Origin: Microcystis aeruginosa Ma_MB_S_20031200_S102
Lineage (GTDB): Bacteria; Cyanobacteriota; Cyanobacteriia; Cyanobacteriales; Microcystaceae
DNA length: 46,679 bases
Assembly (NCBI GenBank): GCA_007095845.1
Contig: SFBI01000019.1
Coordinates: forward strand, 1-46,679
Direction of reading: 5' to 3'
In this document: piece after piece, positions 117 through 32,001 of the stretch
Numbering within the stretch: position 1 is the first letter of the stretch
How the letters are laid out: each line of letters begins with the position of its first letter
The notes under the pieces: model-generated
The model's input: the letters and a program-made list of their open reading frames with translations, nothing else
Database searches by the model: none
Told to the model about the DNA's origin: nothing
Translations under genes and position numbers: made by a program

Positions 117-3100
117 ATGTCAAAAAACTATAAAAAGGTCAATATTGAACTTGATCAGGAGGCAAGGCTCAGTATTTTTGATGTTACCCAGGGTTCGGGC
201 AGCAATCCTCTCATGCGTGTCAGTTCTACTCTAGTTTTACCTGAGAATCAACGGGAGTCTAGCCGATGGCAAGGAAATTTTCGCGGGTTAGTTCGTCAGG
301 ATTTGAATAATCCTCCTCGTATTGGTGATATTCCAGGACAGATCACAAATTATTCTGAAGAGATACAGCGAAATGCTTGTCAAGAGGCAAGAGTAGAATT
401 TGCAAGTCAGTCAAGACAGTGGCTAGAAGACAATTTACGGACTCTAAAAGAGGAAATTCTGGATAAAACCAGTGACCGAGAGGAAGTTATTATCAACATT
501 TCTACTGATGATCGTAAGTTTATTGAGTTTCCTTGGTCAGAATGGTCGCTCTGGGAAAAACGTCCGCAGGCGTGGTTCGCGCTTAGTCCGACCAGCTATA
601 AATCGCCATCTAGTGCTAAATCTAGGGAGGGCAAGATTCGTCTTTTAGCAATTTTAGGGGGCGATAAAGGGATTGACGTGCAGAAAGATAAAGTATTTTT
701 AAATCAGTTGCCGAATACTGATCCTGAGTTTTTAGTCAAAGAACCTAAATCAAGGTTTAGTGATGCTTTATGGGAGCAGACTTGGGATATTCTATCTTTT
801 TCAGGTCATAGTTCTAGTCAAGGCGATCGCGGCTCCATAGCAATTAATGACCATGAGAATTTAAGTCTGGATGAATTAAGAGATGGTTTAAAGAAAGCGA
901 TTTCTAGAGGCTTAAAGTTAGCTATCTTTAATTCCTGTGACGGTCTAAAGTTAGCAGAGTATTTACAGGATTTGAATATTCCGCAAGTTATTGTTATGCG
1001 AGAGCCTGTACCGAATGGCGTTGCTCAAGACTTTTTTAAGTATTTTCTGGGTGCTTTTTTTCATCAAGGAGAGTCATTTTATTATGCTGTCAGAACAGCA
1101 ACTGAACGTATTAATGAAGACTATAATAATAGTTATCCTGGGATTGGTTGGTTGCCTGTAGTGTTCCAAAATCCTGCAACAGAACCATTGAGTTTAGACA
1201 CCGAGATTCGTTATACTGCTGAAAATATTCCTTGGCAGACAATTTGTAATTACCGCTTACAATTACAGCAAAAACTAACAACAAATCCCTTGACGGCGCG
1301 AAAAGTTGATAGAAAGTATGAGCGAGAAGAAGTCTATGTACCTCTCGGTTTACTGGAACGTAAAGTTATTGAGAAATATCCAGCGTACACGCAATCTCGA
1401 AGAGAAAAAAGTAATTTTAACCCTCTAGGTGATGTCATTCAAGCCATTAATCAAGGGATAAAAAATCTAAATCCTTTCAGTAAAAATAAGAATCAAAATG
1501 AGCCAATCTCAACTGATGAGCCGATCATTTTTAAAGAGGTAACAACTGAAGTTGAGGTTATTAAAACCTATGAAAATCAGGAATTTTTAGAACAGGTATT
1601 AAAACGTTGTCAAAGTCCTAAAAGTCAGGGAAAACGTATCGCAATTATTGGAGAACCAGGGTCGGGAAAAACAACCTTGTTGCAACAGGTTGGCCGTTGG
1701 TTAGGTCAAGAGATGCCCGAAGATATTCCTATTTGGGTGTCTTTAGCAGATTTACAAGGTCAGGATTTAGAGGATTATTTATTTGATACATGGTTAAAGT
1801 CTGTTATTAGGAATATTAACATAGATGCGGATTTTAATCGGATTGAAAGTAGTTTTAAGCAGCGATTAAAAGCAGGCAATATTTGGATATTATTGGATGG
1901 GGTTGATGAAATGTACAACCAGTCTGTTAACATTTTACGAGAGCTTGAGAAACAAATCAATGAGGTTAGTTGGTTTGACAATACTCGAATTATTTTGACT
2001 TGTCGTTTAAATCTTTGGGACAATGATTTTAATGCTTTAATTGAGTTTGATACTTACAAAACGCTTAAATTTTCCTATCCTGAGCAAGTAGAGGAGTTTA
2101 TTACTCGTTGGTTTTCACCCTACGATCAAGCAAATAATCAACAGCAAGGAGCTAAATTAATTAATGAGTTAAAAAATGAGGGGAAACAGCGTGTTCAGGA
2201 TTTAGTTAGGAATCCGCTTTGTTTAACGTTGCTTTGTTGGAATTGGTATCATCAACAGGGTCAAAATCGTTTACCAGAGACGAGAGCGGGTTTATATCGT
2301 CAATTTGTTAATAGTTTATTACATTGGCAAAATGAGGGGAAAAAGTATCGTTTATCGGTGACTTCTAAGCAATTAAAACAGCTAAATCGTCAGATAGGTA
2401 AATTAGCTCAATATTGTTGGGATCATGAATTGACTCGTTTTCGATTTCACGAAGATATTGTCTGTAAGTTTTTGGGTGAACAAGGTAATGATAGTTCCTT
2501 ATTTAATCTAGTTCTCAAGTTAGGTTGGCTCAATAAGGTAGGAGAAGATGTTAACAATAAAAACAAAAATATTTATGCTTTCTTTCATCCTAGCTTTACG
2601 GAATATTTTGCGGCGGTGGGAATTGAGGATAGTCGCTTTTTTTTCAATCACATTTCCTATAATCCTAATCATAGTAGGGCTAGTTACCGTATTTTTGATA
2701 CCCAGTGGCGAGAAGTTTTTTTGCTGTGGTTGGGTAGGGAAGATTTAGCAAAAAGCAAGAAAAATCGTTTAATTAATGCTTTAACAACGTTTAAGGATGG
2801 CTGGGATGGATATTATCAATATCAGGCTTATTTTATGGCGGCATTGGGATTAACGGAATTTGATAATCCGAGAAAGCAGAAAAAGGTTATTAAGCAAATG
2901 TTGCGATGGGCAATTTTTGATGAGGAGTATCTTTTAGATAATAAGGATAAATATTCTTCTTTTAGAACAGTTGAGTTATCTCAATCCAAAGAAGAATTTT
3001 TACGACAATATGGAATTGATCTGGGTACACATGATAGCTTTGATAAGTTTCTGGGTGGTGTTGATAGAAACTATTTTTATGACGTAATTTGTAAAGTCCG

Positions 3101-5966
3101 AGGAAAGCCTGATTTATGGAGAGATAAATTAACAGTAGCCCATGCTGCGGGTAGGGTTTTAACTGAGTTAGGTTTTTCTTTAATTGAGGAAGAACCAATA
3201 GAAACACCAGAGAAAGAGATACCAGTACCCGTCAATAATCAAGCACAATCAGAGTACGATGAGTTACTGAATTTAATTTTTCTTGAGTACAAATATCCTT
3301 CCAATAGTTATAAACAATATACGAAGAACACAATAACAGAGGATAATGAAGAATCTGTTAATAAAATTTTTGAGGTATTACCTTATATTGTAGATTTTCT
3401 CAAGGTAAATCCATTAGGGGTGACTAAAATAAATGATGCGTCTCTGGATTGGAAAAAAGCATTTGAATATTTGATTCAACTTTCTATTGATCATGAATTG
3501 ATTGTCAAGTCTTTGGCTGAAGTTATTTCTGCCTTGATTCCACAGGATGAGAAAAAAGAATATAATGCTAAATTACAAACTGCTTTTGAGTGTATTAAGG
3601 AAATTGCGCCTATTGAGTATAAAGCATCGTTGATCGGTCAATTAATGATTTATTTTGACGATCTAGAAAAGATTCAGGATTTGATTGATGATTTAAAACA
3701 ATCCTTGGAAGAGCTACCATCTTTAAATGAATCTATCAAAGACGCATTAACTGATTCTTTAAAAGAGAAAATTTTTAAATCTCCTAATACCTATACAAAA
3801 TACATAGAGATTTATGCCCAATTGTTAGGAAGACCTGCTCAGATTACACCGATCATTTTATCCTTCACTATCCATGATATTCAGTCAAACAATCAGTATG
3901 ATAAAGATATTCCCACTGTGTTAGATGTCTTAGAGCGAAATTCATCTAATCAATATTTTCTTCACTTAATTGCTTATTTTAAAGAGAGTTTAATTAATCA
4001 CAATTTAGAAAAACGTGGCTACAGTTTTAAACTTCTTTATCACTATGCTGCAGGCATTTCTTATCAAGATTTTTCTAAGGTATTTTTTACCCCTAGTTTT
4101 AAGTCGTCTTTAGTGATTCAGTCACTTTATATGAAAATGAAGCGGGATATTTGGTTAAGAGAATATGATAAATTTTCTCAGTTAGCTGAACATAGAGTGA
4201 TAAAATATTCGCTATATCTTAAACTAGATAATCTCATCAATAAAATCGGAAATTTGATAACATACCAAAATAATTTTGAAAATTATCTTTTAGAATTTTA
4301 TTTATATATTCTTAGCATTGTTGAATATTTATTCTTCCTCATCCGATTAATACACTATGCCATGATTCCCTTTTTATATATTTGTCAAGGTGTAGATTGG
4401 CTCATGTCTTTTATTTTATGGCTGTTTTGTAAGTTTACGATTATACCCATTAAAATATTAATCAATACTTTTAGCTTCTCCCAAAAAATTCAAAGAGAAC
4501 GAGTTTATTTCCGTCAGCTTAAAAATTATTGGCATACTTTTGACGGATGGACTCAAGAAATTTTATTCAATTCAATGAATCGTAATACGAATACTATTGA
4601 TGCCTCTGAAGAGACGGGTGTAAATGCTGGTTTGATAACTTTCTTTTTAGGATTTATTGTTTTAATCATTCCTCCATTGTCTGAGTTATTTGATAAGTTT
4701 ATTGTCACGAATTTAAAATTGGCTATAGAATTAATTGTTTATCATTTCAGTAATTACATTAATCACCCTAACCTTTATCTCGTTTATGTACAATGCTTGG
4801 ATGCTTTGGAAAAATTTCTAGGAATCAATATTAACTGGTGGCAAGCGGATACGATAACTTCTCGATTAACCATTTTACTAACTAAACTTGGAATTCTGCT
4901 AACCATAACTATACTTTTCTTTTGGATTATCAATCCAGACAGGTTATACGGGAAAATTAAAAAAATTAGAAACAGTAATTTCAAGAAATTCTCTGGAATG
5001 CTTGTAGGACGAGAATTAAGTTATGATCGATTTGATTTATTCAACATTACTAAATTTGAGAATTTATGTCTTGATTTAATCAATGATGATCAGATGTGGC
5101 TCTCAATTAATACCAATTTTAAAAATAAAGTTCTTGTTAATATTATTAGTGACGTTAAAGATTATGGTGAATTTTTAGATCGTCTTTTGATGATTTTATC
5201 AACTAACAAAAATTCTCAAAATTCAAAACTATTCAGTCTGTTCAATCATTTGAAGTTTCTTGAGCGATACAATCTCGATCCAACTATTATTTACATATTT
5301 TTGCGAAAAATAGGTATATTTTCTTTTTTTATATTCATTTTTCTACTTACATTTTCTGTTGTTTATGTTTTGACTTCCGATCTATTTTATGATGCTGGCT
5401 GTAACTTTTATTTAAACCATGACTATTCTAATTTAGATATTACTGGATTAAAACAGCGTTGTACTGCATTGATTGCTGACAATTATTACTCAGCTTCTAT
5501 TGTAGATAAAATCTTGTTAAAATCGACTGGATTAATTGATTATTATGGTAGTATTTACCACAAAAATCAGTATCAATTTTCCTTGTCGTCAATGAAAGGT
5601 ATTTTAAATACAATATATCTTATTATTATCTATATTTTGACAATTTTTTCTGGATTCTTTATAATTCTATTTTTTATGGATATGATTCCTACATTATCAT
5701 TTGCTAAACTCTCCAAAAAATTATTTAATAAACTAAACAAGCTACAAAAAATCAGAGTAATAGAGTTACTTACTGATTATTATTTTGTTGATTCAGATAA
5801 AGGAATTGAAGGTAAGATAAAATACATTCATGAAAAGCTGTTTAAAGATTTTGAATACCTAGAAATTGATCAAGACCTGCAAAAACTGTTTTGGCAATAC
5901 TATCTCTCAAAGTATAAAAAAGATCATCCTGAGCTAGTTCAAGAAATTATGGACAGCTTTAATTAA
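117..5966 (+). CDS. CHAT-NACHT giant protein with membrane-rich C-terminal half
   Basis: This 1,949-residue protein looks like a STAND-type signalling ATPase joined to a caspase-like protease. The CHAT region spans about residues 170-360. It shows the expected His in FSGHS (His231) and Cys in FNSCDG (Cys274). A NACHT module follows, with P-loop GEPGSGKT at 512-519 and Walker B LLDGVDE near Asp594, then a winged-helix-like stretch. The second half has no TPR or WD40 repeats that I can see. It has hydrophobic segments near residues 1390-1470, 1511, 1583, 1731 and 1831, suggesting membrane anchoring. Family knowledge: CHAT and NACHT proteins often act in bacterial anti-phage or cell-death responses; that role here is inference. 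No strong Shine-Dalgarno precedes the start; I chose the first ATG in the long open frame. No partner gene is adjacent, and the 3' side is decayed IS DNA. Confidence 0.85.
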   Translation: MSKNYKKVNIELDQEARLSIFDVTQGSGSNPLMRVSSTLVLPENQRESSRWQGNFRGLVRQDLNNPPRIGDIPGQITNYSEEIQRNACQEARVEFASQSRQWLEDNLRTLKEEILDKTSDREEVIINISTDDRKFIEFPWSEWSLWEKRPQAWFALSPTSYKSPSSAKSREGKIRLLAILGGDKGIDVQKDKVFLNQLPNTDPEFLVKEPKSRFSDALWEQTWDILSFSGHSSSQGDRGSIAINDHENLSLDELRDGLKKAISRGLKLAIFNSCDGLKLAEYLQDLNIPQVIVMREPVPNGVAQDFFKYFLGAFFHQGESFYYAVRTATERINEDYNNSYPGIGWLPVVFQNPATEPLSLDTEIRYTAENIPWQTICNYRLQLQQKLTTNPLTARKVDRKYEREEVYVPLGLLERKVIEKYPAYTQSRREKSNFNPLGDVIQAINQGIKNLNPFSKNKNQNEPISTDEPIIFKEVTTEVEVIKTYENQEFLEQVLKRCQSPKSQGKRIAIIGEPGSGKTTLLQQVGRWLGQEMPEDIPIWVSLADLQGQDLEDYLFDTWLKSVIRNINIDADFNRIESSFKQRLKAGNIWILLDGVDEMYNQSVNILRELEKQINEVSWFDNTRIILTCRLNLWDNDFNALIEFDTYKTLKFSYPEQVEEFITRWFSPYDQANNQQQGAKLINELKNEGKQRVQDLVRNPLCLTLLCWNWYHQQGQNRLPETRAGLYRQFVNSLLHWQNEGKKYRLSVTSKQLKQLNRQIGKLAQYCWDHELTRFRFHEDIVCKFLGEQGNDSSLFNLVLKLGWLNKVGEDVNNKNKNIYAFFHPSFTEYFAAVGIEDSRFFFNHISYNPNHSRASYRIFDTQWREVFLLWLGREDLAKSKKNRLINALTTFKDGWDGYYQYQAYFMAALGLTEFDNPRKQKKVIKQMLRWAIFDEEYLLDNKDKYSSFRTVELSQSKEEFLRQYGIDLGTHDSFDKFLGGVDRNYFYDVICKVRGKPDLWRDKLTVAHAAGRVLTELGFSLIEEEPIETPEKEIPVPVNNQAQSEYDELLNLIFLEYKYPSNSYKQYTKNTITEDNEESVNKIFEVLPYIVDFLKVNPLGVTKINDASLDWKKAFEYLIQLSIDHELIVKSLAEVISALIPQDEKKEYNAKLQTAFECIKEIAPIEYKASLIGQLMIYFDDLEKIQDLIDDLKQSLEELPSLNESIKDALTDSLKEKIFKSPNTYTKYIEIYAQLLGRPAQITPIILSFTIHDIQSNNQYDKDIPTVLDVLERNSSNQYFLHLIAYFKESLINHNLEKRGYSFKLLYHYAAGISYQDFSKVFFTPSFKSSLVIQSLYMKMKRDIWLREYDKFSQLAEHRVIKYSLYLKLDNLINKIGNLITYQNNFENYLLEFYLYILSIVEYLFFLIRLIHYAMIPFLYICQGVDWLMSFILWLFCKFTIIPIKILINTFSFSQKIQRERVYFRQLKNYWHTFDGWTQEILFNSMNRNTNTIDASEETGVNAGLITFFLGFIVLIIPPLSELFDKFIVTNLKLAIELIVYHFSNYINHPNLYLVYVQCLDALEKFLGININWWQADTITSRLTILLTKLGILLTITILFFWIINPDRLYGKIKKIRNSNFKKFSGMLVGRELSYDRFDLFNITKFENLCLDLINDDQMWLSINTNFKNKVLVNIISDVKDYGEFLDRLLMILSTNKNSQNSKLFSLFNHLKFLERYNLDPTIIYIFLRKIGIFSFFIFIFLLTFSVVYVLTSDLFYDAGCNFYLNHDYSNLDITGLKQRCTALIADNYYSASIVDKILLKSTGLIDYYGSIYHKNQYQFSLSSMKGILNTIYLIIIYILTIFSGFFIILFFMDMIPTLSFAKLSKKLFNKLNKLQKIRVIELLTDYYFVDSDKGIEGKIKYIHEKLFKDFEYLEIDQDLQKLFWQYYLSKYKKDHPELVQEIMDSFN

Positions 5967-6367: not shown

Positions 6368-7169
6368 ATGCCGGTCGTACCCAAAATTGATATTGTTGAG
6401 TCAGTAGAAGATTTGAAAGAATTAATGAAACAACAAAAAAGTAGTTTAGCCTACGCTAAAGTACAGTCCTGATATTTTTTGAAGATGGGCGAGGTAGAGA
6501 CGGTTCGCCATTTAGCAGTATTAATGGGACGAGGGGAAAGAACAATCCATCGCTGGTTAAGTTTCTACAAAAAAACAGCGAACTTATCTAAACAGCTAAA
6601 AGCTCTACTAAACAGGGAAAGCGAGAAAGTAAAGCATTACGAGAAAGTAAGTTTTTGGTGCGAGGATGAAAGTAGATTTGGTTGTCACACTATTGCTCGG
6701 AATAAAATAACTCTTTTCGGAGTTAAGCCCATTGGTAATTTTCAAGATAACTTCCAATGTTTTTGGTTGTACGGGGCTGTAGAGCCTCGACAGGGCAGAA
6801 GCTTCTTCTCTGAATTCTCCCATTTAGATGGGCATTGTTTCAGAGAATATCTATTACAACTATCGCAAGCTTTTCCCGATGAATTACATATTTTACAAGT
6901 AGATAACGCTCCTGCACATATTGCGGGACACTTGGAAATTCTGGACAATATTCTCTTATTTTATCAACCTTCTTGTTGTCCCGAAGTTAACCCCGCAACA
7001 GAGAGTTTGGCTTTACCTGAAAAATTCTCTGGTATGGGAAACTTTTGAATCTCTTGATGCTTTAAGAGATAAACTCGATGCTCTTTTTAATCGTTTATCC
7101 AATGACACTATCGGGTATTTGACGGGATGGTCTTGGATTTTAGAAGCTCTATGTCTTTCAGGAATTTAG
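6368..7169 (+). pseudogene. IS630 transposase, broken in three places
   Basis: Reading from the ATG at 6368 gives a 34-residue N-terminus that stops at TGA 6470-6472. The same frame then resumes with MGEVETVRH and a helix-turn-helix-like stretch ending RTIHRWLSFYK. The middle of the protein, expected between that helix-turn-helix and the catalytic core, appears to be deleted. Catalytic-core motifs remain: CEDESRFG (first Asp) and LQVDNAPAH (second Asp). Just before the third acidic residue a one-base frameshift near 6995-7000 moves the C-terminus (RVWLYLKNSLVWETFESL) into another frame that runs to 7169. The gene therefore has a nonsense codon, an internal deletion and a frameshift. Confidence 0.85.
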
Positions 7170-10639: not shown

Positions 10640-11799
10640 TCAATCATAAGTTAGCCAATGATAGTTAGTCAAGTTTTTAATTTCATTAGTCATTATTTCG
10701 AGATACTGACAACGAGTTATCAGAATTTCTTCTATTTCTTCAATTGTTTCAAAATACTCATTAACCAGAGGTTCATCTACTAGAGACCACAATCTCTCGG
10801 CTGGCTGTAGTTCTGGCGAATAAGCTGGTAAAAAAGCGAGCATGATTCCATCAGGAACTTCAAGTTTTTCACTTATATGCCACCCAGCATTATCTTGTAC
10901 TAATAGGACAATTTTTTCTGCTGATAACCCGACATCTTTTGCAAAAGATTGATAGACTAAACTTAACCATTGATGATTAACTCTTGGAATTAAATACCAG
11001 AGTGTTTTTCCTGTTTTTGGCTCAACAAACCCGTAAACATATAACCATTCATAACGATGATGCACTAGGGCAGAAGGCCTTTCTCCTATTGGAGCCCAGA
11101 CTTTTCTAATGCTTGGTTTTAAGCCAACTCGATGTTCGTCAAAGAACCAGACTTCTACTTGAGAATTGGGGAATTTATCTCTTAATTCTTGGACTTTTAC
11201 TGGTAAGTACCTAAGCAAAATTAATTACATATATCTAACCCCCCCTTACCTTTTGCCTTTCTTCACTAGGAAATTTATTTTGTACGACTACTTAAATTTT
11301 GCTTGAATTTTTCTTATTCAACTGGGTCTCCCTTTTTATGTTTTGGCTTGGGTTTTTGACAAGAATATCTCGACTTTTTTAGGTAATCCCATCCTCTTTG
11401 ATTCCAAACTTTTTCTCGCCCCGTTTCCTTTTCTATCCATCTGGCTACCTTCGGTCCTGTCCAAATTCCTCCATCCGCAGGACGTTCTTTCAGTTCTTCT
11501 TTTAATTTTTGAAATTGTTCTTCCTTCAATAAAGGTTCTTTTCCTCTCCGATGTTCTGCACTTTTTTTCTTGAGATTTTTAACTCCTTCTTCTCCTAATT
11601 CATTATATTTCTTGAGAATTCTAAAACTATATTGATAATCTAACCCCACAGCTACCGCCGCATTTTTGATTGTCCATCCTAAGGATATTTTCCACAATAA
11701 GTGCCATCTTCTTGTTTCCACTGAGTCTTGACTGCTTCTGTATCTATCTTTCAGTTCCTCTGAACTTAGATGTTCGGCTAAGTAAGCTTTCTTGGGCAT
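10640..11799 (-). pseudogene. IS630 transposase split by a MITE and a stop codon
   Basis: The N-terminal part (11799 to 11314, 161 residues) carries a helix-turn-helix and winged-helix region (WTIKNAAVAVGLDYQYSFRI, ERPADGGIWTGPKVARWIE). It ends at TAA 11314-11316, where a Gln codon CAA is likely ancestral. The frame then continues EKFKQNL to TTA 11293-11295. The C-terminal part resumes with PVKVQELRDKFPN at 11203 and holds all three catalytic acids: WFFDEHRVG, VQDNAGWH and SPELQPAERLW. Removing 89 bases between the two TTA triplets joins both parts in one frame of about 355 codons, the normal IS630 length. Taken separately, the downstream piece could start at TTG 11218. Confidence 0.85.
11204..11295. 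repeat. 89-bp MITE inserted in the IS630 transposase
   Basis: The inserted segment is flanked by TTA on both sides, consistent with a TA or TTA target duplication. Its ends are imperfect inverted repeats: read on the minus strand, TAAGTAGTCGTACAAAATAA at one end pairs with the inverse of the AATTAATTTTGCTTAGGTACTTA region at the other. It encodes nothing. Its 89-base length breaks the reading frame, and excision restores it. Confidence 0.75.
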
Positions 11800-29480: not shown

Positions 29481-29649
29481 GTCTAAAAGTCAGGAGTCGG
29501 GAGTCAGTTATCAGTTATCAGATGTGAGTTTTCAGTTATCATACTGAATCTGGTTATTAAAAACTGGTTATTTATTCCCCCTCTTGCATGAGTGCCTCTC
29601 CTGATATGTAGCCTATACTGTATGAATCAGTGTTATATTGGTAGCTAGG

Positions 29650-32001
29650 ATGCGGGAAAAAGGCAAAGAAACGGTAAAGAGAATGAAGTTTATTCACTGG
29701 AAAAAGCAGCATTTATTGATGATTTTTGTACTAGCGCTGGCAATTTCAGTCGCGTGGGGGACAATTTTGCCTGTTTTTACTCAAAAGCCTCCTGCACCTA
29801 ATCCTTGTAACCAACTTAGGGGAGATATTCAAAATCGGGCAAAAAAAGATGCAGAAGCTGACCGGTTGAATTTTTTTCCTTTCAATACTGATAAGAAAAA
29901 AAAGACGACTGGTGATATTTTAAATTTGTATAAAGAGGCAAGTTCTCAAGCTTCTTGTTTTCCACAGGCTCAATTACGGGCTCAATTATGGGATATCTAT
30001 GAACAACAATATGATATTAATAAATATCCTGCCTGGATACCTTTGCCTTTTATTGTTGTTTCTTTTATTCTTGTTGTTTTGGTGGCTTTTATTGGTGATA
30101 CCTTAAAAAAATGGCTCAATCAGTCTTTAGATGCGATTGGTAAATGGATTTATAAAACCTTTGCTGGAACACCCTTATTTGAAAATATTGCTCTTAAAAA
30201 GTATCGACAAGCATTAATTGATAAATATCAAAAACTTAATATACCTTTTCGTCCTCATCGTCCCCTAGAAATGCGGGAGATTTATGTTTCTTTAAAAGCT
30301 TTTAAAGCGAGCGATCGCTCTTTAATTGAAGTAGAAAATGCGGTGCAAAAATACCGCCGCTTAGTGGTTAAAGGTGCGCCTGGTTCGGGAAAGTCGATGT
30401 TATTAAAATATCTAGCACTTTCCTATTCAGAAGGACGATTCAAAAATTTATCGGGTCGTCCCGTGCCAATTTTACTAGAATTGAACCGCCTCAATGAGGC
30501 TAATTTGACAGTAGAAAAGTTAGAACAACAGTTAGTAGAAGTTTGCGATCGCCATAATTTTCCCAAAGCTAATCGTTTCATCTCTCAAGGTTTAAAAGAC
30601 GGACGTTTGCTGCTGCTTTTAGATGGGTTAGATGAGGTTAGTAGTGGCGTTCGCTCTTCTGTTGTTCGGTGTCTTAAGGACTTTTTAGAATTAGAAAAGT
30701 ATAAAAAATGTCGAGTAATTATTACCTGTCGGACGGCTGTTTATCATAATGAGTTTGTCGATGTTACAGAGCAAACTTTAGAAATTGTCGAATTTAGTGA
30801 CCAGCAAATGCGCCGCTTTTTGCAAGCTTGGAAGTCGCAAATGCCGCCAGAGAAATCAGTAGAACAATTGATTCAAAACTTGCGAGCTAAACCGAAAATT
30901 ATGGCACTGGCGCGGAATCCCCTACTGTTAACAATCATCGCCTATCTTTATACTGATACTCCCTTCGTTTTACCTCATTCGCGGGCCGAATTTTACACTA
31001 AAGCTACTGATGTTTTATTAGAATTGCGCGATGAAGAAAGAAATATCCCTAATCAATATAGTGGTGTCAACAAGCGGCGAGTTCTGCAACATTTAGCACT
31101 CTATGCTCAGAATAGCACTAATCGACAACAGCAAGATCGCCGCAGTCTTCTTGATTCTGAAGTATGGGAACAAGTTAAACAAGTCTTACCTTCATTAAAT
31201 CTAGAGGCTAAAGATGCTAATTCTATCGTTGATGAAATCGTCAAACGCAGTGGATTATTGCTTCGCATTGATGGCGGACAGCGTTATTATTTTCCTCATC
31301 TCACTCTACAAGAATATTTCGTAGCAGCAGCTTTAACAGACAAACAAGATGAATTAATTCAAAAATGGCAAAACGCTCCTAGCGACTGGCTAGAAATTGT
31401 CAAGTTATGGTGTGGATTGCCGAACAATAGTACGGATTTAATTACGGCGGTATATCAACAAGATACACTGACAGCATTTGAATGTTTAGCAGATGCTCAA
31501 GAAGTAACACCAGAAGTTGCTCAGGAGATTATAGATTATTTTAAAACACAATTGAGAACCGATGAATCAATTTGTAGTGCTTTTGGCTCAGTCGCAGCTG
31601 ATTTTCGTCCTAGAGGGAAAGCATTATTTGATTTTTTAGTTGCTAGTTTAGATAATTCAGCCAGCCAAAAAGCAGCGGCTCAAGCCTTATCCGCCACTAA
31701 TTTGCCTCAAGCAGTAGAAAAATTAGTTATTTACTATGATCCGAATCAACCTCATTTTATAGAAGTGCGAGAAGCCTTAATCAGAATGGGAGGTTTAGCA
31801 GTCAATCAACTAGAATCTTTAGCTCGAAAAGGCTCTATAGAAGCAATGGATGATCTAGTTAAAATTGCCATACCAGAAGCGGCTGAGGCACTTGCAAGAT
31901 TGCAGGAAGATCCGAACTTAAGCGGAAAAGTAAGTTTTCGACTTGCAGCACTGTTGAACGAGTTAGAAGATAGTCAAGCTGAACGCAATCGCACTTTATA
32001 A
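29650..32001 (+). CDS. Membrane-anchored NACHT ATPase with HEAT-like C-terminus
   Basis: This is a 783-residue STAND-type NTPase from the ATG at 29650 (TTG 29638 is open upstream). Membrane helices lie at about residues 24-44 (LMIFVLALAISVAWG) and 128-152 (WIPLPFIVVSFILVVLVAF), with a roughly 80-residue outside loop containing conserved-looking cysteines. The NACHT follows: P-loop GAPGSGKS at 242-249, Walker B LLLLDGLDEVSSG with Asp325, and a sensor-like CRVIITCRT. About residue 560 onwards is a helical, HEAT-like region (KAAAQALSATNLPQAVEKL). NACHT proteins are known in bacterial antiviral defence; that role is inferred. The next gene begins 13 bases downstream. Confidence 0.85.
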   Translation: MREKGKETVKRMKFIHWKKQHLLMIFVLALAISVAWGTILPVFTQKPPAPNPCNQLRGDIQNRAKKDAEADRLNFFPFNTDKKKKTTGDILNLYKEASSQASCFPQAQLRAQLWDIYEQQYDINKYPAWIPLPFIVVSFILVVLVAFIGDTLKKWLNQSLDAIGKWIYKTFAGTPLFENIALKKYRQALIDKYQKLNIPFRPHRPLEMREIYVSLKAFKASDRSLIEVENAVQKYRRLVVKGAPGSGKSMLLKYLALSYSEGRFKNLSGRPVPILLELNRLNEANLTVEKLEQQLVEVCDRHNFPKANRFISQGLKDGRLLLLLDGLDEVSSGVRSSVVRCLKDFLELEKYKKCRVIITCRTAVYHNEFVDVTEQTLEIVEFSDQQMRRFLQAWKSQMPPEKSVEQLIQNLRAKPKIMALARNPLLLTIIAYLYTDTPFVLPHSRAEFYTKATDVLLELRDEERNIPNQYSGVNKRRVLQHLALYAQNSTNRQQQDRRSLLDSEVWEQVKQVLPSLNLEAKDANSIVDEIVKRSGLLLRIDGGQRYYFPHLTLQEYFVAAALTDKQDELIQKWQNAPSDWLEIVKLWCGLPNNSTDLITAVYQQDTLTAFECLADAQEVTPEVAQEIIDYFKTQLRTDESICSAFGSVAADFRPRGKALFDFLVASLDNSASQKAAAQALSATNLPQAVEKLVIYYDPNQPHFIEVREALIRMGGLAVNQLESLARKGSIEAMDDLVKIAIPEAAEALARLQEDPNLSGKVSFRLAALLNELEDSQAERNRTL

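Follow-up and report, generated by a model that had tools for sequence, protein, structure and literature searches.

A Microcystis aeruginosa CHAT-NACHT protein with a predicted multi-segment membrane tail, filed as a variant of the EACC2-caspase class of predicted conflict systems

The stretch of DNA analysed here (the window) is the entire contig C101 of a Microcystis aeruginosa genome, 46,679 bases long; the genome comprises 4.57 Mb in 219 contigs. Near its start lies a long gene on the forward strand, whose open frame begins three codons ahead of the ATG and which is preceded by 116 bases and then the contig end. Its nearest downstream neighbour is a transposase gene (6479-7169), and most named genes among the contig's other genes scanned are housekeeping genes. 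Transposase genes were noted at 6479-7169 and 10640-11799, with a DDE_3 match for 6479-7048 and the second pair judged by eye. No curated model of Avs or of named antiphage NACHT systems was matched above its cut-off by the long gene's product in PADLOC or among the best 25 of 40 NCBIfam families; PADLOC gave only marginal P-loop matches (mad3/mad8, E 0.0025 and 0.0075), and the NCBIfam scores stayed far below their cut-offs (EruA 31.7 bits against 1000, HyoA 15.9 against 1200). The whole protein found no match in the viral contigs scanned; with the whole protein as query, 103 plasmid records match partially, none of them covering 80% of the protein. The features of the gene are the following (KD, Kyte-Doolittle; TM, transmembrane):

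117-5966, + strand: whole gene, ATG-started open reading frame of 1949 codons plus stop
117-743, + strand: N-terminal part of the constant protease module, EACC2-like (name from PMC8195603), residues 1-209, by alignment with the L213 protein
744-1127, + strand: CHAT domain, residues 210-337 (Pfam PF12770)
807-809 and 936-938, + strand: CHAT catalytic codons for H231 and C274, by conservation
1533-2921, + strand: NACHT NTPase and winged-helix module, residues 473-935 (Pfam PF05729, conservation, AlphaFold2/Foldseek)
2922-4019, + strand: helical region, residues 936-1301, where relatives carry HEAT repeats (AlphaFold2 model, 34 sequences)
4020-4073, + strand: degenerate NCC-H element, residues 1302-1319 (sub-threshold HMM matches)
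4284-4376, + strand: hydrophobic segment 1390-1420, TM or interfacial (KD peak 1.96)
4404-4469, + strand: hydrophobic segment 1430-1451, TM or interfacial (KD peak 1.97)
4623-4688, + strand: predicted TM segment 1503-1524 (KD peak 2.22)
4866-4934, + strand: predicted TM segment 1584-1606 (KD peak 2.29)
5304-5378, + strand: predicted TM segment 1730-1754 (KD peak 2.67)
5379-5594, + strand: predicted extracytoplasmic loop 1755-1826 with the cysteine pair C1762/C1782 (5 K+R in 72 residues; positive-inside rule)
5595-5690, + strand: predicted TM segment 1827-1858 (KD peak 2.83)

A first-pass annotation of this DNA had proposed the order CHAT, NACHT and membrane part, which was borne out: both Pfam families exceed their cut-offs (CHAT at 211-337 with E 2.4e-7 and 30.9 bits against 24; NACHT at 507-667 with E 1.3e-9 and 38.6 bits against 26.7), and six hydrophobic peaks are present. 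H231 and C274, which it had named as the CHAT catalytic pair, indeed stand at these positions and are invariant in 45/45 CHAT homologue alignments (42 distinct sequences). In front of the CHAT domain, Pfam detected no family in residues 1-191. Residues 1-380 form a widespread module, with matches at E <= 1e-30 in 321 genomes out of a sample of 388 from the order, and residues 42-372 are 43% identical to the CHAT-CHASE2 protein of L213, a sigma-DUF1822 locus. Seven CHAT proteins were scanned for domains, which gave CHAT-CHASE2 four times and CHAT-kinase-CHASE2, CHAT-nSTAND1-WD40 and CHAT-periplasmic-binding-protein once each, the last one from the window genome. The fetched CHAT relatives include 37 whose 3' end is complete, and in 30 of them a KD peak of at least 1.9 follows the CHAT domain; the 37 are mainly the best-scoring and longest matches from the order sample, plus one protein of the window genome. 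Judged by sequence, the CHAT module is related to the CHATs of membrane receptors and is mostly coupled to membranes. The earlier idea of a caspase-like protease positioned at the membrane is supported.

Moreover, some CHAT relatives share a gene neighbourhood. Among 20 named CHAT loci (L208-L227), eight agree by similarity in a pair of upstream genes and a single downstream gene; by Pfam, the L213 locus encodes sigma-70 region 4, DUF1822, CHAT-CHASE2 and DUF928 proteins, with which single genes in L209, L210 and L219 agree. The window genome itself contains such a locus on contig C83, in the order HTH/sigma-70-region-4 protein, DUF1822 and CHAT-Peripla_BP_6. Elsewhere in this genome, DUF1822 has three matches, one of them within the complete C83 locus and two near contig starts. 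The latter are frames with partial profile matches in the first 1.3 kb of contigs C138 and C211 (L260 and L261), which end 144 and 103 bases from the contig start and point off the contig. Either of them could sit upstream of the window gene; no overlap was found between these contig ends and the start of the window.

This setting resembles the EACC2-caspase systems, which according to the accessible text of PMC8195603 combine a constant N-terminal module, a caspase-fold protease and a highly variable C-terminus; the latter includes STAND NTPases, CHASE2 with TM helices and multi-TM domains, and the neighbours are sigma factor and DUF1822 genes where TRADD-N is absent. The likeness is that the window protease module aligns with sigma-DUF1822-CHAT loci and that NACHT plus a multi-TM tail takes the place of the C-terminus. 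However, STAND and multi-TM C-termini are separate variants in the sections of that paper available, whereas the window protein joins NACHT, helical region and multi-TM tail in one chain. The N-terminal module thus fits the EACC2 type, an equation based on matching architecture and neighbours and not on an EACC2 model or reference sequence. We file the protein as a variant of the EACC2-caspase class of predicted conflict systems with a NACHT core. The first-pass annotation had allowed that homologues might already be described as a named system, which is partly the case, given that the protease module fits this class as far as the accessible text of PMC8195603 describes it and that relatives share the layout.

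In the NACHT module, the residues K518, T519, D594, D597, E598, R630 and H824 are invariant in 78/78 homologue alignments (63 distinct). We take residues 512-519 to be Walker A and 592-598 to be Walker B, and the conserved residues would presumably serve in these two motifs, as sensor Arg and as winged-helix His. An AlphaFold2 model of residues 481-1330 reached a moderate mean pLDDT of 66.9 and was used solely for the presence of helices and for likeness to NLRs. Foldseek placed two mouse cytoplasmic lattice chains on top of its matches, then NOD2 (E 3.1e-7), and also matched NLRP9 and NLRP3; the TM-scores by query length were low, with 0.26 as the best among the 50 matches listed. By its modelled anatomy, the window protein is NLR-like.

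Behind the NACHT module, the protein resembles cyanobacterial NACHT-HEAT-NCC-H proteins (PF05729, PF13646, PF22730), to which its NACHT is approximately 32-52% identical and with which it shares a similar helical length and a variable tail; it differs in its degenerate NCC-H, in the HEAT repeats undetected by Pfam and in its membrane tail of 630 aa. The N-termini differ across these NACHT relatives as well (CHAT, but a caspase in L098 and EAD10 in L097). Pfam HEAT repeats occur in 8 of 10 relatives scanned whole (exceptions are L102 and L196); in the window protein Pfam gave no HEAT match and nothing convincing behind NACHT. Nevertheless, the model built from 34 sequences shows regular helices from approximately residue 1080, with block pLDDT values mostly of 55-75 and below 50 at 994-1077. 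At the site of the NCC-H element, an HMM built without the query scored 3.3 bits, a value reached by 3 of 1000 shuffles, and Pfam PF22730 scored 14.1-14.2 bits (E 0.04), which is under the 27-bit cut-off; Y1316 and F1319 coincide with invariant columns in the 34-sequence alignment. A PF22730 search of the own genome found nothing at E <= 0.001, and likewise nothing for the controls. Using the model made without the window protein, NCC-H was found in 93 of the 105 distinct relatives whose 3' end is complete and not in the other 12. The distance from NACHT to NCC-H amounts to 367 residues in the window protein and to 157-924 among the 93 members. The membrane module had earlier been thought to take the place of the sensor, a reading that found no support, since a helical region of a length within the family range and a degenerate NCC-H precede the membrane part. 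Hence, the usual sensor slot is probably filled by the helical region, and the membrane module would be the tail behind it.

Hydrophobic helices had been expected over the approximately 900 C-terminal residues; they are present, but confined to about 1390-1858 and not spread over 1000-1949. Six non-overlapping Kyte-Doolittle peaks of at least 1.9 lie between residues 1391 and 1853 of the 630-residue tail. Shuffled tails had 1.6 such peaks on average, six were reached by 0 of 2000 shuffles, and a single peak of at least 2.83 by 48 of 2000. The segments at 1504, 1586, 1734 and 1835 are convincing as predicted TMs, and the pair at 1391 and 1431 could represent two TMs or an interfacial hairpin. 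After the last TM segment (1827-1858) follows a K/R-rich stretch of 91 residues with 16 K+R, which is predicted to be cytoplasmic. The predicted inside loops contain 51 K+R in 335 residues and the outside ones 9 in 131; the corresponding Fisher p of 0.014 is optimistic, because the segment borders were set by hand and the better of two orientations was taken. The predicted topology consists of hairpins with two longer loops of 59 and 72 residues outside and is drawn from hydropathy and charge only, because no homologue of the tail was detected. An AlphaFold2 model of the tail as a single sequence (pLDDT 42.8) and a PDB search, which had no match at E <= 0.001, were both left unused.

Considering all these features, we see about an even chance that the gene encodes a single-chain, membrane-anchored, NLR-like conflict protein, in which NACHT would switch a CHAT protease that brings about cell death or a stress response. 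The cytoplasmic N-terminus would consist of the EACC2-type constant module and the caspase-fold CHAT protease with intact catalytic residues, switching would fall to the NACHT ATPase, and the helical region that follows would act as a sensor or autoinhibitory arm, while the C-terminal hairpins would anchor the protein in either the plasma membrane or the thylakoid membrane. The helical arm or the extracytoplasmic loops might recognise a cue from phage or stress, upon which NACHT would oligomerise in the plane of the membrane and bring the CHAT domains together. Proteolysis by CHAT would then be released on a membrane-near substrate or on the own chain, and the outcome would be cell death or a transcriptional stress response. 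Protease activity, oligomerisation, activation, substrate and defence role are inferred in this scheme.

The loops also invite a different reading, that the membrane part is the true sensor for events in the envelope or lumen, with the 59- and 72-residue loops and the cysteine pair as its sensing face. Close CHAT relatives carry CHASE2 or a periplasmic binding protein as a fused extracytoplasmic sensor domain, and the loops are predicted outside, one of them with two cysteines. But the loops are short, had no domain match in Pfam, and the usual sensor position is already taken by the helical region, so that we regard this reading as unlikely.

The tail found no homologue in any search made, all of them single-sequence searches that fast-changing TM regions can escape. 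These covered overlapping sets of 50 genomes of the family, 386 of the phylum, 388 of the order and 61 further genomes. Against plasmids and phages, tblastn with the tail gave nothing at E <= 1, PHROGs gave nothing either, and an exact-peptide scan of the genome contigs produced 26 pattern matches with no relative among them. Residues 1001-1949 had no match in 11/11 other genomes of the genus searched. Weak tail matches at E <= 10 appeared in 20 further genomes, the best of them (E 0.0021, G287) lying in a frame interrupted by stops; a second search returned G287 once more and G010 at E 0.0056. They were dropped, since the open reading frames at 6 of 21 places look unrelated by eye and the remaining ones were aligned by blastp; the frames at these six places resemble, by eye, a valyl-tRNA synthetase, a topoisomerase, an aminopeptidase and histidine kinases, with one protein left unplaced.

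Could the tail then be a degenerate or chance C-terminal fusion, fast-decaying or recently acquired, for which at most an anchoring role is selected? Apart from the missing homologues in the searches made, including the 11 other genomes of the genus, the GC content drops from 40% in CHAT to 27% in the tail, and the NCC-H in front is degenerate. We nevertheless hold a chance fusion to be very unlikely, with a stop-free frame of 630 codons at 27% GC, six hydrophobic segments, a charge pattern fitting the topology, and membrane tails at the end of other CHAT-NACHT proteins too.

The comparison of these relatives started from 123 family open reading frames, of which 115 were distinct and 105 remained after removal of 10 whose 3' end was open or whose part behind NACHT was short; they had been fetched for length or similarity and not at random. 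Generally, tails behind NCC-H vary in this family. They are shorter than 60 residues in 43 of 93 and at least 60 residues long in 50 of 93 relatives; 91 of them measure 0-37 or 83-191 aa, and the two others 294 and 323. Some tails carry recognisable domains such as NCAB1 (PF22724) in L102 and L103 or an Rce1-like membrane protease in L113. In the latter protein (L113:254-4345, - strand), which is of the NACHT-HEAT-NCC-H type, the C-terminal end is an Rce1-like CAAX prenyl endopeptidase (PF02517, E 6e-7), so that a NACHT switch is combined with an intramembrane protease.

Membrane tails, defined as KD of at least 1.9 at more than 100 residues behind NACHT, were found in 4 of 11 CHAT-fused relatives (L099, L196, L241, L242) and in 1 of 94 without CHAT (L113; 2 of the 94 are cut at the 5' side), with the window protein excluded (Fisher p 0.0003). 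The cut-off of 1.9 was picked after the window peaks were known; at 1.6, at least one peak occurs in 4/11 against 11/94 and at least two peaks in 3/11 against 4/94. Furthermore, L196 was counted as CHAT despite an in-frame stop (the automatic count is 3/10 against 2/95), and without L196 p becomes 0.0025. In this LEGE 13415 sequence, the CHAT part (about 130-900) is broken by the one stop, so that the gene may be broken or misread. When L241, L242 and L196 are collapsed to one origin, Fisher p is roughly 0.02. The relatives are not independent of one another, and an independent-pairs test of the link between CHAT and membrane tail was not significant; the 3 and 6 pairs available on starred branches are too few for it. 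The architecture, regarded as unusual in the first-pass annotation, is thus not unique, but no homologue of the window tail itself was found in the searches made. The four relatives, L099/L167 (UBA11372), L241, L242 and L196, share the CHAT-NACHT-NCC-H-membrane tail plan, with HEAT in L099, L241 and L242; they differ in their tails of 123-294 aa and in NACHT domains that do not form one clade with that of the window protein. Their tails gave no match with the window tail below E 0.06, while those of L241 and L242 match one another (E 7e-4). Seven of the 11 CHAT-NACHT relatives have no membrane tail.

These tails bear on the question whether the multi-TM tail might be the killing part. In a CHAT-activated gasdermin system, the gasdermin gene lies beside the protease. 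For the window protein, a NACHT-activated CHAT would cut the own chain and thereby free or open a membrane pore. The accessible text of PMC8195603 proposes both that EACC2 systems are activated by autopeptidase action and that their multi-TM C-termini form membrane pores, the Rce1-like protease in the L113 tail indicates that the slot can hold effectors, and the tail is long (630 aa) with hydrophobic hairpins. However, two of the four membrane tails among the CHAT-NACHT relatives (L099 and L241) have one peak of at least 1.9 each and look more anchor-like, and the structure model of the window tail is useless at its low pLDDT. We give such a pore only a low probability and prefer the tail as anchor of a NACHT-switched CHAT protease.

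Regarding the history of this combination, a careful NACHT tree was calculated with 43 of 106 domains, made up of the full set of 12 CHAT-fused ones and a selection of 31 others. The window NACHT pairs with L097 (support 96/84), an EAD10-NACHT-HEAT protein in which NCC-H was not detected, inside a set of 13 (99/97); the pair has a support of 87 in a quick tree of 106 rows. It stands apart from L241/L242/L196 (100/100) and from L099. A single clade of all twelve CHAT-fused proteins was rejected (AU p 2e-5), as was, for the NACHT domain, one of the five CHAT-membrane proteins (AU p 0.002), a group that was named after inspection of the tree and in which the window protein and L196 have long branches. 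Since the NACHT tree sets the window protein elsewhere, the CHAT-NACHT-membrane combination was probably assembled repeatedly, as the polyphyly of the NACHT domains suggests; a tree of NACHT only also allows later NACHT replacement. Repeated assembly would predict the membrane as the site of action of this CHAT lineage.

A literature search, which missed most subscription papers, yielded no description that we recognised as a CHAT-NACHT-membrane protein, yet several described classes share parts of its plan. In the two-gene EACC1-caspase systems, as described in the accessible part of PMC7159879, the caspase is N-terminal, the C-terminus is highly variable (including STAND NTPases, repeats and periplasmic-binding-protein domains), and the systems are membrane-associated, with TM helices in at least 33% of the caspase proteins. 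The window protein is similar in its N-terminal protease, variable C-terminus and membrane link; in contrast, the EACC1 systems have an own EACC1 partner gene with a single-TM domain and are prevalent in actinobacteria (PMC7159879). The bacterial NLR-related bNACHT proteins share the tripartite plan of effector, NACHT and sensor, but as far as the accessible part of PMC12169576 goes, they carry nuclease or undiscerned effectors and SNaCT or NCH1 C-termini, and the word "transmembrane" is absent from the main text. In cyanobacterial metacaspases, too, a caspase fold is combined either with NACHT plus repeats or with TM helices, and NACHT, AAA or CHASE2 occur as partners; they are Peptidase C14 and not CHAT, and NACHT plus a multi-TM tail in one metacaspase was not seen in the accessible text of the two sources (PMC3501461, PMC2853523).

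With its single chain, the window protein connects the EACC2-caspase conflict systems to the modular NACHT proteins of cyanobacteria. If the preferred reading of a membrane-anchored, NACHT-switched CHAT protease is true, bacteria would have in it a membrane-bound parallel to the NLR-caspase signalling of animals. A bolder version, which we consider quite improbable, would make it the counterpart of inflammasome and executioner in one protein: the membrane-assembled NACHT would activate its own CHAT, which would unlock a previously unknown built-in multi-TM pore, and the pairing of CHAT-NACHT with membrane tails would have evolved repeatedly in cyanobacteria because the CHAT lineage acts at membranes.

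Two further observations concern neighbouring and related proteins. Nine of the ten long CHAT frames L086-L095 have a hydrophobic peak at 818-892; the domain scan covered L088 (L088:6099-11399, + strand), a CHAT-nSTAND1-WD40 protein with the peak (about 818) between NTPase and propeller. Moreover, the contig encodes a second NACHT protein of 787 aa (29638-32001, + strand; Pfam NACHT E 2.9e-17, PADLOC PDC-S60 E 1.4e-10), which weakly resembles EruA and DS8 and has two strong hydrophobic peaks near the N-terminus, one around residue 30 and one around residue 138 of the open frame.
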